Assembly (NCBI GenBank): GCA_029939505.1
Contig: JAOZSV010000017.1
Location: 1-36,923 of the forward strand
DNA length: 36,923 nucleotides
Direction of reading: 5' to 3'
From: Thiotrichaceae bacterium
GTDB lineage: Bacteria > Pseudomonadota > Gammaproteobacteria > Beggiatoales > Beggiatoaceae
In this document: in pieces, positions 21,344 to 28,007 of the stretch
How the letters are laid out: each line of letters begins with the position of its first letter
How positions within the stretch are numbered: the first letter of the stretch is position 1
The notes under the pieces: generated by a model
What the model saw: the letters and a program-made list of their open reading frames with translations, nothing else
Told to the model about the DNA's origin: nothing
Database searches by the model: none
Position numbers and translations under genes: made by a program

Positions 21344-22701
21344 AGACTTGTCCCGAAATAATTAAGTAATATATTTCATATACTTATATAAACGACGAAA
21401 TTAAAAAAACTTAAAAATCAATTAGTTATATAAATTTAATTCGATTTGACAGTTAATGATTTATCATGTTATACTAAAAAATAAAAAAAGTTCATTAATC
21501 AATTAATCAATAATATGGGTGGACAAAAATGTTTAATTATTCTAATTCAACTCGAAGTGAACGACAATTAAAAGCACTAACCGGTTTGGGTAAAAAGCCT
21601 TATGAAGAACTCTTACCGGCTTTTTCGGAAAGTTTAACCGAAATCTCTAATGAAGCCTATAAAAAAAATCGTAAAAAACGAAGCCGTCGCCCTGGTGGTG
21701 GGCGAAAAGGACAGTTACGAACGGCTGAAAATAAGTTGTTTTTCATCCTTTTCTATTTGAAAAACTATCCGACTTTTGACGTTTTAGGATTTATATTTGA
21801 TTTAAATCCCTCTAACGCAGAGGAAAATGTGAAACAATTATTACCGGTTTTAAAACGAGCTCAGGCAAAGCTAAATGTGTTACCCAAACGCCGTGTGAAA
21901 ACCGATTCTGAATTAGAAGAAGCCATAGAAACCGTGGGCAAACCTTTAGAGCAACTGTCTGATTTGACCTCAACCGTCACACCATCGGTTGAACAACCCG
22001 CCAAAGATAACTTTTTCGCATTGGAAAAAACCGCCTCTTCTTCCTCTTCCTCAATCGAAGCCGATTCCTCTTCTTCCTCAAAAACCAAACTGGCCTCAGT
22101 CGCAACCACGATTGAATCAACGCCCCCAGCCCCTTTGGTCTTGATTGATGTGACCGAAAGAAGCCACTTTAGACCTAAAAATAATTTGACACAAAAAAAA
22201 TATTATAGTGGCAAAAAAAAAAGACATACCGTCAAAAATACTCTTATCTCTGATACGAAACGACGTGTGATCTTTTTGGGTAGCACCTTTAAAGGGAGTT
22301 CACATGATTACAAAATGTTTAAACAAGAGTTTCCCTCTTCTCAGTTTGGTTTTTCACCGATCAAGATAGCAGTTGATCTTGGATATCAAGGCATTAAAAA
22401 AGATTATCCCTCAGCTTTGCCAATTTTTATCCCTCATAAGAAACCCAAAAAATCAAAAGCCAACCCAAATCCTTCTTTAACTCGAAAACAAAAGGCTCAA
22501 AACAAAAAACTCGCTTCAAAACGAGTTATTGTTGAACATGCAATAGGAGGAATGAAAGCGTTTCAAATTTTGTCCACCAAATTTCGTAACCGTCAGACCA
22601 AAAATTGGGTTGATGAAGTTATTTTTCAAGTCGCTGGATTATGGAATTTAAAAATACGTTATTAATCAATATTTTATAAGTGATTATTTCGGGACAAGTC
22701 T
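21344..22701 (+). mobile_element. IS5-type (ISL2-like) insertion sequence, 1358 bp
   Basis: Perfect 19-bp terminal inverted repeats AGACTTGTCCCGAAATAAT at 21344-21362 and in reverse at 22683-22701. It is flanked by a direct repeat ATT (21341-21343 and 22702-22704), consistent with the ANT target duplication of the ISL2 group. It carries one transposase gene. It interrupts the GT2 gene, and precise removal restores the frame. A 90-bp non-autonomous relative lies at 36554-36643. Confidence 0.9.
21529..22665 (+). CDS. DDE transposase (DDE_Tnp_4, IS5-like)
   Basis: 378 aa. An N-terminal helix-turn-helix region (about 68-112, TFDVLGFIFDLNPSNAEENV) is followed by the RNase H-like catalytic domain with D207 (LVLIDVTER), D283 (IAVDLGYQG) and E336 (VIVEHAIGGMKAF). 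Between them is an unusual low-complexity Ser-rich stretch (residues 169-184) encoded by TCTTCC-type repeats. A GGTGG Shine-Dalgarno lies 7 nt upstream of the ATG. The frame is complete, so the element may be active; it would catalyse its own cut-and-paste transposition. Confidence 0.9.
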   Translation: MFNYSNSTRSERQLKALTGLGKKPYEELLPAFSESLTEISNEAYKKNRKKRSRRPGGGRKGQLRTAENKLFFILFYLKNYPTFDVLGFIFDLNPSNAEENVKQLLPVLKRAQAKLNVLPKRRVKTDSELEEAIETVGKPLEQLSDLTSTVTPSVEQPAKDNFFALEKTASSSSSSIEADSSSSSKTKLASVATTIESTPPAPLVLIDVTERSHFRPKNNLTQKKYYSGKKKRHTVKNTLISDTKRRVIFLGSTFKGSSHDYKMFKQEFPSSQFGFSPIKIAVDLGYQGIKKDYPSALPIFIPHKKPKKSKANPNPSLTRKQKAQNKKLASKRVIVEHAIGGMKAFQILSTKFRNRQTKNWVDEVIFQVAGLWNLKIRY

Positions 22702-22910
22702 ATTACTGATACCTTTGAATCTTGTTGTTGGATAGCAATTGCTTTTTCCAGTGAGTTATCAGGTGAACCATCATTGACAAATATAATTTCGTAACGATCA
22801 GTGATAGATTCGACTGCTTTTTTTATCCGTGCATAAAATTCATCTATGTAAGGGCTAGAGTTATAGAGGGAAGTTACGATTGAAAAAGTGGGTTCAGTGA
22901 CTTTATTCAT
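22702..22910 (-). pseudogene. GT2 glycosyltransferase, 5' fragment
   Basis: Encodes the nucleotide-sugar binding start of a family 2 transferase: PTFSIVTSLYNSSPYIDEF, then YEIIFVNDGSPDNSLEKA (D of the NDGS motif), ending KVSVI at the IS. The natural start is probably ATG 22908-22910 (MNKVTEP). It is fused in frame to 28 upstream codons from a DUF4276 gene, so the expressed frame could be a chimera that ends a few codons into the IS. Confidence 0.85.
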
Positions 22911-22994
22911 AAGATTTGTTCTCAAAGGCGCTAAAAGTTCTTTAATAAATTTTTCTTCCGTTTGCCCTTCAACCAATATCAAAACTTTTTTCAT
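22911..22994 (-). pseudogene. Remnant of a DUF4276 gene
   Basis: 28 codons (MKKVLILVEGQTEEKFIKELL...) that match the N-terminus of DUF4276 proteins such as 17891-18391. They overlap the ATPase 3' fragment by 4 bp, the normal coupling of this pair. The rest of the gene has been deleted, joining it in frame to the GT2 start. Confidence 0.85.
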
Positions 22995-23587
22995 GGTTTA
23001 CCGCCAATAAGGTTCTTTTCCCATATTTCTCCCATAGAATATTCTTCTATCCATTCTTTGAGTTCTTCACTTGATAATCTTTTGAAAATAGAACTATTTT
23101 TTTCTTTATCAGCCACAATGATATTGTTTGGTTCAAAGTAATCAAGTAAAGTGACAGATTGGGTTGATGCAATAATTTGCTTATCGTTTGAAAAAGCTTT
23201 GATTAAAGAAGCTAATACAGAAATTGCATACGGATGCAAACCTAATTCAGGTTCATCTATGATAAGGGTATCCGGCGGATTAGGCTGTAAAAGCAATGTT
23301 GCTAAACAGATAAATCTAAGTGTTCCGTCAGATAAGCCAAAAGCATCAAAATAGTTATCACTTTGTTGCCATTCTAATTTTATTTTTTCCGGGTTCAGCG
23401 CATTTGGTTCCAAAATAAACTGGTCAAAATAGGGCGCAACCAGTTTTATGGTTTCTTCTATTCGATGAAAACTCAATTCATTAGTTTGCTTTAGCTTATA
23501 CAAAAAAGCGGCTAAATTACCGGCATCATAAGCTAACTTTCTATTATTATTGATATAGTTGCTAAAAATATAGTGAAGTGTTGACAA
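22991..23587 (-). pseudogene. AAA ATPase, 3' fragment
   Basis: C-terminal part of a DUF4276-associated ATPase: DAGNLAAFLYKLKQ, GLSDGTLRFICLATLLL (signature), TLIIDEPELGLHP (Walker B), ASTQSVTLLDYF and the terminal YSMGEIWEKNLIGG. It aligns from about residue 185 of the intact paralogue at 18391-19476. The 5' half is at 25552-26046 on the other side of the IS607 element. Confidence 0.9.
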
Positions 23588-23617
23588 TATAGAAAAATTT
23601 CTATATTATAGTCTGCC

Positions 23618-24226
23618 ATGAAAGCAAAAGAGGTTTTAAAATTAACCAATATTAGTCGAAGACACCTATCAAGCCTAATTAAACAAGGCCAAATTCGGAT
23701 CGTTGTTAAACCCAATGGGCAATATGATTACAATCCTGAGGACGTTTATAAGTACATTGGCAAAGAACGTCGCTCTCTTCATATTATTTATGCTCGTGTT
23801 TCGACCCCAAAACAAAAATCGGACTTAGCACGTCAAATTGAAACACTAGAAACTTTTTGTTTGGCTCAAGGAATAAAAATAGACCATGTTTTTTCTGATG
23901 TGGCCAGTGGTATCAACTTTGAAAAACGAAAACAGTTCTTCGTCTTGCTTGATTTGGTGATTGATGGTCAAGTCTCCAAGGTTTTCATCAATTACAAGGA
24001 CCGCCTAAGCCGAGTTGGTTTTGGGTTATTTAAACATCTATTTCAAAAATTTGGAACAGAAATAGTCGTGGCTAATGGCCATAGTAATGAGAAATTAGAT
24101 AGCGAAGAAATAATGAATGAAATTATTACATTGATTCATTGCTTTTCAATGAAGCACTATTCAAAAAGACGTGTTAAACGTGCAATTGAGGCGTTAAATG
24201 AGAAGAACACTAAAAACGAAGATTAG
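23618..24226 (+). CDS. tnpA: IS607-family serine recombinase TnpA
   Basis: 202 aa. N-terminal MerR-like helix-turn-helix (KEVLKLTNISRRHLSSLIKQG) precedes the resolvase catalytic domain, the order specific to IS607 TnpA. Catalytic serine S62 in IIYARVSTPKQKSDLARQ; arginines R129/R132 in NYKDRLSR; C-terminal helix (about 165-195). It is complete, and overlaps tnpB by 29 bp. It mediates integration and excision via a phosphoserine intermediate. Confidence 0.92.
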   Translation: MKAKEVLKLTNISRRHLSSLIKQGQIRIVVKPNGQYDYNPEDVYKYIGKERRSLHIIYARVSTPKQKSDLARQIETLETFCLAQGIKIDHVFSDVASGINFEKRKQFFVLLDLVIDGQVSKVFINYKDRLSRVGFGLFKHLFQKFGTEIVVANGHSNEKLDSEEIMNEIITLIHCFSMKHYSKRRVKRAIEALNEKNTKNED

Positions 24227-25463
24227 AGGCTTAGAACCGTCCGAATTTAAGCGACTTAGAGAACTCACTTTCCAGGCCAAAAATCTTTATAATCAGACTT
24301 TATGGACTTTGCGACAAGCTTTTGAGATAACCGGCAAATACTTTAGCTATCCTCAAATGGATAAAGCCATGAAACAAGTGGATAATCTTGAAGGTCAGAT
24401 TAACTACAGACTATTGAAAGCCAAAGTTGCTCAACAAACATTGAGGCGTGTTGATCAAAATTTTAAGTCGTTTTTTCAAGCGAGTAAAGATTTTAAAAAG
24501 AACCACAGTAAGTATAGGGGGCAACCACGTCCGCCTCGCTTCAAGCAAAAACGATACGATAATCTGATTTTTGATTACCAAGCATTTAAAGTTAAAGGTA
24601 CCCTTGTCCTTTTGGAAAAAGGACTAGAAATTAAGCTCCCTAATGCGTTAGTTGGAAAAATGATTAAGCAAATAGAAATCATTCCAAAACCTCACTTTTT
24701 CCAAGCCGTTTTTGTTTATGAAGAAGACGCACAAAATTTTAAAATGGTTGCATCAAATGATAAAGTGATGTCTATTGATTTGGGTTTAAATAACTTGGCC
24801 ACCTGTGTGACAAATGCGGTGCTCAAGCCGTTTATCATTGATGGTAGGCGAATTAAGTCGGTTAATGCTTACTATAATAAGCGAAAAGCTAAACTTCAAT
24901 CAGAATTAGAAAAAAGTCGAGGTAAAAAATGGTCTGTCAAACTCCAAAGTTTGACAGAGAAGCGTAATGCAAGAGTCAATGACTATCTACATAAAGCAAC
25001 CGCGCATGTCGTCAAAACCTGTTTAATTCATCATATTTCAAAAGTGGTTATCGGTGATGTGGCAAAATCTCTTGATCATATTAATTTAGGCAAGAAGACC
25101 AATCAGAACTTCGTGAATCTATCTCTTGGCCAGTTTGTTGATAAACTATCTTACAAACTTGGGCAACATGGAATTAAATTAATTGTTGCAAATGAGAGTT
25201 ATACTTCAAAAGCCAGTTTTCTTGATGGTGATCAGATGCCAAAAAAATATGATAAAGAAGCCAAACCAGCTTATTACAGCGGCAAAAGAATCAAACGAGG
25301 TTTATACCGAAGCAAAGATGGAACTTTAATTAATGCTGATGTCAATGGTGCATACAACATTTTGAGAAAAGATGATTCAAACTTTTCCTTTTCGTCTTTT
25401 ATTAAAAGGGTGGGTAACGTTAAAAAATGGTTACATCCAACGGAACGAGTGTTTATTAATTAA
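24198..25463 (+). CDS. tnpB: TnpB RNA-guided nuclease-like protein
   Basis: 421 aa, full length for the family. N-terminal helical wedge/REC region (1-185), then RuvC-I MSIDLGLNNLAT (D194) and RuvC-III TLINADVNGAYNIL (D381). Two oddities: the RuvC-II strand reads VVIGDV with D287 where most TnpBs have Glu, while E333 lies in ANESYTSKASF; and the CxxC zinc ribbon between RuvC-II and III is absent, replaced by YTSKASFLDGD. This is the variant common in some IS605/IS607 lineages, including cyanobacterial ones. It may use a relocated acidic residue. It would cut target DNA with an omega RNA from the element's right end. Confidence 0.88.
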   Translation: MRRTLKTKIRGLEPSEFKRLRELTFQAKNLYNQTLWTLRQAFEITGKYFSYPQMDKAMKQVDNLEGQINYRLLKAKVAQQTLRRVDQNFKSFFQASKDFKKNHSKYRGQPRPPRFKQKRYDNLIFDYQAFKVKGTLVLLEKGLEIKLPNALVGKMIKQIEIIPKPHFFQAVFVYEEDAQNFKMVASNDKVMSIDLGLNNLATCVTNAVLKPFIIDGRRIKSVNAYYNKRKAKLQSELEKSRGKKWSVKLQSLTEKRNARVNDYLHKATAHVVKTCLIHHISKVVIGDVAKSLDHINLGKKTNQNFVNLSLGQFVDKLSYKLGQHGIKLIVANESYTSKASFLDGDQMPKKYDKEAKPAYYSGKRIKRGLYRSKDGTLINADVNGAYNILRKDDSNFSFSSFIKRVGNVKKWLHPTERVFIN

Positions 25464-25550
25464 GTAACCCTAAGCTTCAGCGAGGGGATAATGGGTAGAT
25501 CGTTCCCCTGTACGGATATATAGAAATATTTCTGCATTATTCTATATTTC
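25380..25550 (+). ncRNA. Candidate omega RNA at the element right end
   Basis: TnpB elements encode a guide RNA that overlaps the 3' end of tnpB and runs out through the right end. After the stop (25461-25463) the sequence has GTAACCCTAAGC, then a potential hairpin AGGGGAT / ATCGTTCCCCT (about 25483-25512). The guide would be whatever lies past the right boundary, here the ATPase gene on the plus strand. Boundaries are inferred. Confidence 0.45.
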
Positions 25551-25551
25551 A

Positions 25552-26046
25552 CTACAAAATCGCGATCTGACAATATTGTTTGACAGCGGCAGTTGAACCG
25601 GTGTCATGAAAATGATAAATTTTCCATAATTTTAAGGCTTCTATAAGAGAGCCACAAACACCCTTGTTCTCATACAATTTGGTTTCTTCATTTGCTCTTC
25701 CTATAGGATGCCAACTGTTAAAATAACTTTCTTCTTCATCAATAAATAAAAATCCCTCATTTGCTGGCTTAAGTTTGAAACGATATTTGTTATTTCCGAA
25801 ATCAATTTCTCCGAAAATAAATTTTGAGTGTTTAAGTCCAAAATATAATAAATTATCAATGCCTTGCTCAATACTATAGGGCTTCAGCTGTTTTTCAATT
25901 ATTTTATTGAGCAGCTTAAAAAAAGAAATCAAATTTGATTTCCCAGCACCATTAGAACCAACAAAAATATTTATATTCGTTAAGGGTAATTTATCTAACT
26001 TATTGATAGATTTATAGTTTTTTATGGTTATTGTGTTAATTTTCAT
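25552..26046 (-). pseudogene. AAA ATPase, 5' fragment
   Basis: N-terminal 164 codons with Walker A GSNGAGKS (30-37) in NINIFVGSNGAGKSNLISF, then FGLKHSKFIFGEIDFG and KIYHFHDTGSTAAVKQY, the family block just before the break. It ends at a stop near the IS607 right edge. With 22991-23587 it makes one ATPase of the 18391-19476 type. Confidence 0.9.
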
Positions 26047-26086
26047 TATTCAATTTCCACCCGAATAAGATTATTTAGTTGATTCA
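25985..26086. repeat. Direct repeat, downstream copy
   Basis: About 100 bp (ATTTATCTAACTTATTGATA near its start, TTATTTAGTTGATTC at its end) matching 28032-28122 except for a roughly 12-bp indel and a few substitutions. It spans the start of the split ATPase and a non-coding remnant of the ATP-grasp 3' end. It brackets the 26084-28007 ATPase/nuclease cassette. Confidence 0.9.
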
Positions 26087-26650
26087 TTTAACCTGTTTTA
26101 CAAATTTTTCTATATAAAAAGTTTGATTACATTGTTGCTCTGATATAAGCAAACCATTGATATTCGCAAATTTAATATTTTCTCTTTTTGTTCCTTGCTT
26201 TCTTTGAGTTTTTCTAGTGCTAAATACAATACATCTTATATTGTCTTTATCTATTTGATAATTTTTATTAAACATTAAATTCAACATATTTTTTAGATAG
26301 TTCACAAAATTTTTACCGGCTTGTAGCTGTTTTTTATAATCTCCTAAATTATTTGATTTTAACTCAATCAATAAAACAAATATTTCATTACCGTTTTTAT
26401 AAAAAATAATCCCATCATTTACTTTTGTAATATTTCCGAGTGATTGATTAAAAAAAGGAAACATTTTACATCTATTTTGAAGTTGATAATCAAGTGAGAA
26501 AGCAAAAATATTTTTAGAGGTTAATTTCAAAATCACTTTTTGACAACCACTTTCATTTTTAATTTCATTTATTGTAATCTCTTTAGAAATAATAGGTATA
26601 ACTAAATCTGAGTTGATTATATTAGAAAGATTAGTGATTATATTTTGCAT
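26084..26650 (-). CDS. PD-(D/E)XK nuclease-like partner of the 458-aa ATPase
   Basis: 188 aa from the ATG at 26648-26650 (MQNIITN), preferred because AGAGG lies about 7 nt upstream; a longer frame from 26683 lies within the ATPase. The core reads NDGIIFY (D79), FVLLIELKSNN (E96-L-K98) and YKKQLQAGKNFVNYL (Q108), fitting PD-(D/E)XK. It overlaps the ATPase end by 20 bp. Probably the effector of a two-gene defence module. Same architecture, but little sequence resemblance, to the partner at 32706-33248. Confidence 0.65.
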   Translation of the reverse strand: MQNIITNLSNIINSDLVIPIISKEITINEIKNESGCQKVILKLTSKNIFAFSLDYQLQNRCKMFPFFNQSLGNITKVNDGIIFYKNGNEIFVLLIELKSNNLGDYKKQLQAGKNFVNYLKNMLNLMFNKNYQIDKDNIRCIVFSTRKTQRKQGTKRENIKFANINGLLISEQQCNQTFYIEKFVKQVK

Positions 26651-28007
26651 TATCTGCCTCTTTTTGATAGTAAATATCATCACTCACACTATTTAAATTA
26701 TTTATGACATTATCAAAAGTGTTGGCAATAATCCCTTCTTTATTATCCATCTCCATTAATTTGATACCATTATCATCAAATAGATAAGCACTCACCTTTT
26801 TATCTGAGATCAGCATATTTTCACTATATCCATAATTTTGCATAATCTCGGTTTTGGATTGAAACTCAGCTTTTAACATGATTAAGTTATTTATTTCTCT
26901 TACGAAATAATCGCTATGTGTACTCACAATCACTTTTATCCCACGATTAGCAATCATGACTAAAATGATGGCGATTTTTCTTTGATTCTCAGGATGTAGG
27001 TTAAGTTCTGGTTCATCAATTATGAGCGTTTCTCCCTTTTTGGCTAAATGTTCTAAATAAAACACCAATGAAAAAAAGGTTTTTACTGTTGATGATGACA
27101 GATGTAAAGAGATTTTTTGATTAAAATTATCTGTCTTGGAGTGTATTTTATCTGGTATAAAGTAAATGCCATCGGTTTCAACGATGTATTTACCATTTAA
27201 TATCTTTTTTTGAATTTCAATGGCTAAATCCTGAAAATCTGAATTGAGTTTTTTGAGTTCAAAACTATTATTTAAAAAATCAATATAATCCGCTATTGGT
27301 TGCGAATATCTTGAAATGATTAAGTCTTTAATGAGTTCCTGTGTATTGATTTCTGTTATCTTATGATGAAATATTGCTGTTCTTTTGCTACTCAATTCTT
27401 TATAAAATAGATTTAAACCGGTTCTCTCAGCGGGTAATAAAAAGGAGTTTGAAAATAGACGATTAAATATAAAATGATTTAAAACGGCTTCTAATTTATC
27501 ATTGATAAGCTCTTTTGGAATGGTATTATCAAGTAATATTAATTTTAAAATGAAGCTATCTTCCTCTTTTATCGCGTTAAAAACAATTTTACCCTTTTTA
27601 CCCAGATTAATATTGCTTCTATGTGCCGTTTTTAATAAATCTTTTTTTAGTTCTGTTTCATTTAATTCAAATTGAATTTGAGCCTTTTCAAATTCATTTT
27701 CATTCGCACTAAAAACTAAAGATAAACTTTTAGAAAAGGCGACTTCTAGCTCTTGTTTCATTTTTTGATAATAACTCTCAAAAAAAGTATTTAAATCTAA
27801 TTCATAAAAACCATTTTTATATATATTTTCTATGATTGGGTTTAACTCTTCTAGGTGGATTTGAAAATTTTTATCAAATAAACTATATAAAGTATAAGCG
27901 ACATAAGTCTTTCCAGTATTGTTTGAGCCTGCAAAAATAGTGAGATTATTAATCTCAACATCACCTTTAGCTATATTCCCTAAATTTTCAAAATGAATTT
28001 TTACCAT
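26631..28007 (-). CDS. AAA ATPase (OLD-like, no TOPRIM), 458 aa
   Basis: Walker A GSNNTGKT (27-34) in NLTIFAGSNNTGKTYVAYTL, a long helical insertion of about 250 residues, Walker B ETLIIDEPELNLHPENQ, and STHSDYFVREINNL near the C-terminus. It belongs to the AAA_15-like ATPases often encoded beside a short nuclease. The cassette with its partner is bracketed by direct repeats (25985-26086, 28032-28122) and separates the ATP-grasp gene from the downstream, IS-split ATPase. Very AT-rich, like its partner. Confidence 0.8.
   Translation of the reverse strand: MVKIHFENLGNIAKGDVEINNLTIFAGSNNTGKTYVAYTLYSLFDKNFQIHLEELNPIIENIYKNGFYELDLNTFFESYYQKMKQELEVAFSKSLSLVFSANENEFEKAQIQFELNETELKKDLLKTAHRSNINLGKKGKIVFNAIKEEDSFILKLILLDNTIPKELINDKLEAVLNHFIFNRLFSNSFLLPAERTGLNLFYKELSSKRTAIFHHKITEINTQELIKDLIISRYSQPIADYIDFLNNSFELKKLNSDFQDLAIEIQKKILNGKYIVETDGIYFIPDKIHSKTDNFNQKISLHLSSSTVKTFFSLVFYLEHLAKKGETLIIDEPELNLHPENQRKIAIILVMIANRGIKVIVSTHSDYFVREINNLIMLKAEFQSKTEIMQNYGYSENMLISDKKVSAYLFDDNGIKLMEMDNKEGIIANTFDNVINNLNSVSDDIYYQKEADNAKYNH

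Follow-up and report, generated by a model that had tools for sequence, protein, structure and literature searches.

The RuvC active site of TnpB nucleases and their relatives is known in more than one arrangement. An alternative position of the second acidic residue, termed Ealt, characterises two groups of sequences, a DphiG clade of TnpBs and a DPG clade that includes the Fanzors; one of the search patterns used in that work demands zinc cysteines, as E-x6-CxxC...CxxC (PMC10711439). The RuvC site of Fanzors consists of an Asp on the second strand, a Glu on the loop leading from the fifth strand to the TNB subdomain, and an Asp on a helix (PMC11423790), and D383, E541 and D606 of SpuFz1 coordinate two Mg2+ (PMC11423790, PMC10432273). 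Among TnpBs, the RuvC-II rearrangements RII-r3 and RII-r5 define described clades that are not necessarily inactive: one RII-r5 orthologue was active, and so were 27 of the 59 TnpB orthologues tested (PMC10278001). The TnpB of the IS607-family element ISFba1, with a solved structure, has D194, E290 and D371 and works with a RAGATH-18 RNA (PMC11061315). Here we analyze the tnpB gene of an IS607-family element in contig JAOZSV010000017.1 of a Thiotrichaceae bacterium (36,923 nucleotides, hereafter the window), and compare it with these systems.

Predicted active site of the Thiotrichaceae TnpB

The gene and the codons that bear on its active site, all on the forward strand, are the following:
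24198 to 25463, +: tnpB, encoding a predicted RNA-guided nuclease TnpB of 421 amino acids (NF040570, with OrfB_IS605 and Cas12f1-like TNB Pfam domains)
24777 to 24779, +: codon of D194, the RuvC-I Asp (invariant, 44/44 and 95/95)
25053 to 25055, +: codon of G286, the column of the ordinary RuvC-II Glu (Gly in 44/44, aligned on the Cas12f Glu)
25056 to 25058, +: codon of D287, a variable position (column counts)
25194 to 25196, +: codon of E333, the putative relocated RuvC-II Glu, Ealt (44/44 and 95/95; matches the Ealt Glu of six zinc-bearing TnpBs)
25215 to 25319, +: residues 340-374, the TNB stretch that houses the zinc ribbon in other TnpBs (alignment A6)
25338 to 25340, +: codon of D381, the RuvC-III Asp in INADVN (44/44 and 95/95)

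The protein scores 195.1 bits against NF040570 (NCBIfam guided_TnpB; curated cut-off 100). We aligned it with 43 relatives that are 33-76% identical to it (alignment A2), and all 44 members match NF040570 at an E value of 0.001 or better. The alignment has 24 invariant columns, among them D194, G286, E333 and D381. The same four do not vary in a second, larger set, whose 95 rows comprise 85 distinct sequences (the window protein is included again and some places occur twice). Three acidic RuvC residues are thus present, the second at an alternative place. As the first-pass annotation had stated, D194 (in SIDLGLN) and D381 (in INADVNG) are in place in the 421-residue frame, and E333 lies within ANESYTSKASFLDGD.

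The same annotation had read I285-G286-D287 on the RuvC-II strand and proposed D287 as the residue standing at the Glu position. The letters are correct; the register is not. HMMER comparison with solved Cas12f chains (9i8y and AsCas12f chains) places G286 on the RuvC-II Glu and D287 on the next residue, so D287 lies next to the lost Glu rather than replacing it. Its column is also variable, with K49, D28, Y7, E4, N2, H2, W2 and R1 in the 95 rows, and K22, D8, Y6, N2, H2, W2, E1 and R1 in alignment A2. The accompanying suggestion that this could be a TnpB with relocated active-site residues is borne out, with E333 at the position published as Ealt (PMC10711439). RuvC-I reads D194-L195-G196, the D-hydrophobic-G of DphiG Ealt TnpBs (column 195 in the 95 rows: L in 85, F in 5, I in 3, V in 1 and P in 1). 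Since pro-Fanzors and Fanzors combine Ealt with D-P-G at RuvC-I, the window protein, with D-L-G, is not a pro-Fanzor. We consider E333 to be the second catalytic residue, with a probability of roughly 0.85.

An AlphaFold2 model built from alignment A2 (mean predicted local distance difference test score, pLDDT, 88; predicted template-modelling score, pTM, 0.68) has D194 in strand 190-195 and E333 straight after the fifth RuvC strand (327-332); D381 is part of helix 380-392, and D287 ends the RuvC-II strand 282-287. Structure prediction had been proposed as the check on whether D287 or E333 completes the site; it speaks here to fold topology, through the place of E333 directly after its strand. 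The positions of the Glu and of the last Asp agree with the description of the Fanzor RuvC site (PMC11423790), and E333 appears to correspond to the Fanzor Glu because it follows strand 5 and precedes the zinc-finger stretch. In Foldseek and VIA-align comparisons, most of the model matches Cas12f, ISDra2 TnpB, ISFba1 TnpB and the mimivirus Fanzor2 (8h1j, Z 21.4, root-mean-square deviation (rmsd) 6.5, 346 residues aligned; 8iaz, Z 21.4, rmsd 6.6, 349 aligned; 9b0l, Z 18.7, rmsd 6.6, 357 aligned). Like Fanzor2 (9b0l) and the Fanzor1 SpuFz1, the protein carries its Glu on the loop past the fifth RuvC strand, but the Fanzors have D-P-G and a zinc finger where the window protein has D-L-G and no cysteine pairs. 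ISFba1 TnpB is an IS607 TnpB of similar size and matching fold (8iaz); its Glu, however, lies 96 residues past the first Asp, compared with 139 in the window protein, and its RAGATH-18 RNA finds no match in the window.

Loss of the zinc ribbon and breadth of the group

The absence of CxxC pairs before RuvC-III, also remarked on in the first-pass annotation, is real. The two CxxC pairs that make up a zinc ribbon between RuvC-II and RuvC-III are missing from the window protein, whose only two cysteines, C203 and C276, both lie outside the zinc-ribbon stretch. Between residues 326 and 390, CxxC is absent from all 95 rows: 74 lack cysteine there altogether, 16 have one and five have two. The missing pairs are common to every member of the clade sampled.

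In other genomes we found six TnpBs (L137, L138, L142, L155, L164 and L181) that retain the zinc-finger cysteines and have both Gly at RuvC-II and a Glu placed as E-x6-Cys. When these were aligned with the corresponding piece of the window protein (alignment A6), G286, E333 and D381 were invariant (7/7), with E333 on the Ealt Glu of all six. The first zinc Cys of the Ealt pattern falls on S340 of the window protein, and S340/D343 and R371/D374 occupy the cysteine columns. The TNB subdomain is still recognisable though its zinc cysteines are lost. The window protein is thus like the DphiG Ealt TnpBs in its RuvC-I D-L-G and in its Glu at the E-x6-Cys site (E333-x6-S340), and differs from them, as far as the available parts of PMC10711439 describe them, in that it and the sampled clade lack the zinc cysteines of the published pattern. 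L164 (a frame from about position 508, forward strand, in the same Parageobacillus genome as L062) reads EESYTSQTCPVC and has a second knuckle shortened to CRC; this protein is a possible intermediate between the zinc-bearing and the zinc-less Ealt TnpBs.

A tree was built from which the trait columns had been removed. In it, 15 zinc-less Ealt rows, including the window protein, form one branch (support 100/99), with members from cyanobacteria, Bacillota, Chloroflexota, an Izimaplasma, Lokiarchaeota and viral contigs. The family of the window is represented too; with Thiomargarita and Parabeggiatoa as the closest relatives, it would belong to the gammaproteobacterial sulphur bacteria. The zinc-bearing L142 and L164 group together, nearest to the zinc-less branch (91/73). 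Close to the Ealt rows lies L173, which is Ecan and has a very long branch, and the zinc-bearing Ealt proteins L137, L138 and L155 are placed among the Ecan rows; the tree therefore does not show that Ealt arose once. Altogether, 133 rows were classified, which are not a random sample: 89 zinc-less Ealt, six Ealt with zinc, and 38 in neither class, of which the 24 inspected all have Glu at RuvC-II. Class calls of distant rows, in which MAFFT had shifted RuvC-II, were corrected by reading the sequences, and L142 and L164 were called as Ealt with a zinc finger.

The host genome contains two more full-length members, at 67% and 41% identity, with the same features. All six named records examined for them have the zinc-less Ealt motifs: Helicobacter pylori plasmid pAL226, Anoxybacillus, Dolichospermum, Bacillus phage G, Methanohalobium and Paraclostridium. 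In contrast, proteins from Escherichia coli and Salmonella, which were weak hits, have the zinc cysteines and lack Ealt. The IS607-family TnpB of pAL226 (L186) reads IMGIDLGLN, VIGKND, EESFTSKCDHL and LNADING, and so shares the triad, the Gly at RuvC-II, the absence of CxxC and an overlapping IS607 tnpA; it differs in having K at position 287 and is 36% identical to the window protein. A tblastn search with the window protein gave matches in 477 plasmid records out of 72,556 and in 64 phage records out of 50,697, counts that include other types of TnpB, the E. coli and Salmonella proteins for example.

The window protein also resembles the RII-r3 and RII-r5 clades in its rearranged RuvC-II and in its RuvC-III NADxN, the latter as in the "Derived" group, and the RII-r clades and Ealt may well be the same arrangement. 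A PNAS 2023 census reportedly treats rearranged TnpBs. In our partial search of the literature we met no description of a zinc-less Ealt group as such, and we make no claim that it is unpublished. A further idea is offered tentatively: that the zinc-less Ealt TnpBs, which occur in bacteria, archaea and viral contigs and include that of the H. pylori IS607-family element, represent an enzyme design of their own. Relocation of the Glu would either have freed the protein from its need for a zinc ribbon or have come after the ribbon was lost, and the TNB loop would now be held by polar or ionic contacts where zinc was once bound (for instance D343-R371). Cleavage might then differ too, for example as weak trans-cleavage, which has been suggested for Fanzors (PMC10711439).

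Probable activity of the nuclease and alternative explanations

From its sequence, the protein is best described as an IS607 TnpB of a known kind, with its RuvC-II Glu in the alternative position, and as probably an active RNA-guided nuclease. The RuvC site would be made of D194, E333 and D381: the ordinary Glu of column 286 would have become Gly, and the metal-binding Glu would be E333, on the loop between strand 5 and TNB, as in Fanzors. The protein would bind RNA read from the right end of the element (25462-25568), with about 20 bases past the element serving as guide, and cutting of an empty copy of the insertion site would favour keeping the element. The analysis itself shows the conservation pattern, the aligned positions, the predicted fold topology, selection on relatives and covariation in the RNA; that E333 binds metal, that DNA is cut, how long the guide is and that the element gains from it are inferred. 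Because the design is common to a wide group of relatives, we regard the nuclease as probably working rather than broken, and we think it likely that the protein cuts DNA using its own RNA.

Selection on the relatives and traces of movement are consistent with this. Among 20 close sequences, the ratio of nonsynonymous to synonymous substitution rates (dN/dS) had a median of 0.10 and a maximum of 0.33 over 31 pairs with dS of 0.05-1.5 (some sequences enter more than one pair, and L016 and L099 represent a single place), a pattern indicating that relatives of the window tnpB are under purifying selection. A sister species (genome G001, contig 6, positions 1447-1607; L195) contains a remnant of the right part of the element, 161 nucleotides long and 98% identical, with the rest of tnpB missing, which suggests that the element was recently mobile. 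Just upstream of this remnant, a second and diverged right-end-like hairpin sequence was seen by eye.

Several observations weigh against an active enzyme with E333 in its site. The match of E333 with the Fanzor Glu rests on its place in the predicted fold and not on a residue-level alignment; the model has a pTM of 0.68 and blocks at 291-310 under pLDDT 60; and D194 lies on the first RuvC strand by our own strand count, as against the second in the Fanzor description (PMC11423790). The dN/dS pairs omit the window, whose dS to its relatives is at least 1.9. Genes similar to the window tnpA were found with 24 of the 84 copies with at least 900 nucleotides of upstream sequence, duplicates and the window included. 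Finally, 32 of the 59 TnpB orthologues (59 less the 27 active ones) were without activity at a target-adjacent motif (TAM) (PMC10278001).

Three other explanations were weighed. A D-D-D site in which D287 replaces the RuvC-II Glu and E333 is structural draws on the fact that D287 ends the RuvC-II strand, adjoining the ordinary Glu position, and that 28 of the 95 rows have D there. Yet K occupies the column in 49 rows, Y in seven and other residues in most of the remainder, while E333 never varies, and the Glu column is 286, not 287; with a variable column and the wrong register, D287 was rejected as the catalytic residue, and we judge this site very improbable. Even less credible is that the missing cysteines and odd RuvC-II reflect local decay of, or a sequence error in, the window copy. 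Decayed copies with internal stops, as well as fragments, do occur in related genomes, but the same features recur in all 95 rows, distant organisms among them, in the two other copies of the same genome and in the six named plasmid and phage records, and these relatives refute the idea.

More deserving of attention is a loss of cleavage. TldRs are nuclease-dead relatives of TnpB that act as RNA-guided binders or repressors, and a protein whose RuvC-II Glu is gone from its usual place and whose zinc ribbon is lost could be of that sort. Against this, the three acidic positions are invariant over a broad clade whose members include relatives under purifying selection, the element has a full-length tnpA, and the remnant in the sister species points to recent mobility; in addition, a TnpB with a rearranged RuvC-II was active in one case (PMC10278001). 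A binder or repressor of the TldR kind is, in our view, improbable. On the preferred reading, with E333 as the second catalytic residue, loss of the RuvC-II Glu and of the zinc ribbon is insufficient ground for calling the nuclease of the element dead, and the same caution applies to the wide group of TnpBs with these features, including the IS607-family element of H. pylori. The idea of a relocated glutamate also becomes testable in a prokaryotic protein that lacks zinc cysteines; in the parts of the sources covered here, structural data on the arrangement come from Fanzors.

The element, its right-end RNA and its insertion site

The features of the element and of the gene that it interrupts are the following:
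23554 to 25568, +: IS607-family element, about 2.0 kb between the outermost conserved bases (junction uncertain by 1-3 bases)
23554 to 23617, +: left end, beginning TATAGT (comparison of copies)
23618 to 24226, +: tnpA, IS607 serine recombinase of 202 amino acids (NF033518; Resolvase PF00239)
25462 to 25568, +: putative right-end (omega) RNA scaffold, which overlaps the tnpB stop codon by two bases and reaches the end of the element
25569 to 25588, +: predicted guide segment, host-gene sequence beside the element (copies differ after ...GATCT)
22991 to 23553, -: C-terminal part of the interrupted AAA ATPase gene (flank joining; AAA_21)
25567 to 26046, -: N-terminal part of the same gene (flank joining; 25567-25568 also belong to the conserved right end)

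The putative right-end RNA was studied in 16 copies, 13 of which were aligned over a conserved 25462-25568; three (L002, L028 and L042, longer insert) were left out of the alignment, and in these the RNA stretch starts inside the tnpB frame. The RNAalifold consensus retained nine pairs. Hairpin 1 has one compensatory pair, changed on both sides in two related copies. A long-range helix joins GAUCGU (25498-25503) with GCGAUC (25562-25567), near the end of the element, and its pairing is kept despite changes: at its three variable positions, 32 of 39 cells are paired, a value matched by nine of 5000 shuffles in a hand test that ignores relatedness. Since the terminal bases of the element are taken up by this helix, we expect the guide to begin after GATCT; we set its length at 20 nucleotides by analogy with ISFba1 (PMC11061315). 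In ISXfa1, the first flanking nucleotide belongs to the scaffold (PMC10711439).

A RAGATH-18 guide RNA was rejected as a candidate, since no Rfam match reaches the gathering score in the window and none bears that name up to an E value of 10 in 24700-25800. The other Rfam matches up to E 10 in that interval, to four small nucleolar RNA families and one enterobacterial small RNA, are all far below their gathering scores. Among seven relatives searched with Rfam, we found one tRNA and nothing more.

The element is bounded at about 2.0 kb because copies elsewhere share the sequence from about 23554 to about 25568 and then diverge. Where a copy matches as far as the ends, the similarity begins at 23547-23554 and breaks off at 25568-25572; many others match inner parts only. 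TATAGT is exact in 11 of the 14 other left ends listed (eight different places, since three of them are each represented by two rows), and those of L027, L110 and L106 deviate from it. As is characteristic of IS607, a serine recombinase TnpA is encoded beside tnpB: tnpA scores 174 bits against NF033518 (transpos_IS607; cut-off 110), and its 3' end overlaps the start of tnpB by 29 nucleotides. Also as expected for IS607, there are no terminal inverted repeats: of 26 inverted pairs listed, the 25 longest include none located at the termini. The outermost inverted pair is subterminal (23586-23606 with 25518-25538) and consists of a partly palindromic AATATAGAAA motif present at both ends.

On the left, the sequence varies among copies immediately ahead of TATAGT; on the right, it does so immediately past GATCT or variants of it. 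We found no two bases common to both junctions across all the copies compared that could be the crossover dinucleotide, and no TAM is readable from the compared element junctions. When the element is excised in silico, a single AAA ATPase frame of 347 amino acids results (AAA_21), and we therefore place the element within a host gene. Only the bases GAT are common to both junctions in the window; the frame of the host gene fits when the flanks are joined in a script, and no empty site was seen.

Copies in other places are in various states. One in the same genome (L002, 1441-2803) has a left end that leads straight into tnpB, with no tnpA found; its guide-RNA stretch starts within the 3' end of its tnpB frame. 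Genomes of the same family have many tnpB matches, some with internal stops (at least 26 in G018, at least 31 in G019 and five in G033), and right-end matches as well (19, at least 34 and 10, respectively).

Within 22674-26046 on the reverse strand, the interrupted ATPase gene encodes a product that resembles the candidate defence ATPase HEC-01A (the joined protein matches with an E value of 3e-136). It is followed at 22674-22994 by the beginning of a HEC-01B/DUF4276-like gene, which runs into a glycosyltransferase 2 fragment and adjoins a DDE transposase (21529-22665); the candidate HEC-01 defence pair may have been disrupted by a deletion. At 26084-28007, on the reverse strand, lie two neighbouring genes whose matches to PD-T4-4 B and A (E values 4e-44 and 6e-121) span almost the full length; next to the broken HEC-01 pair, they appear to be a defence pair that is intact.

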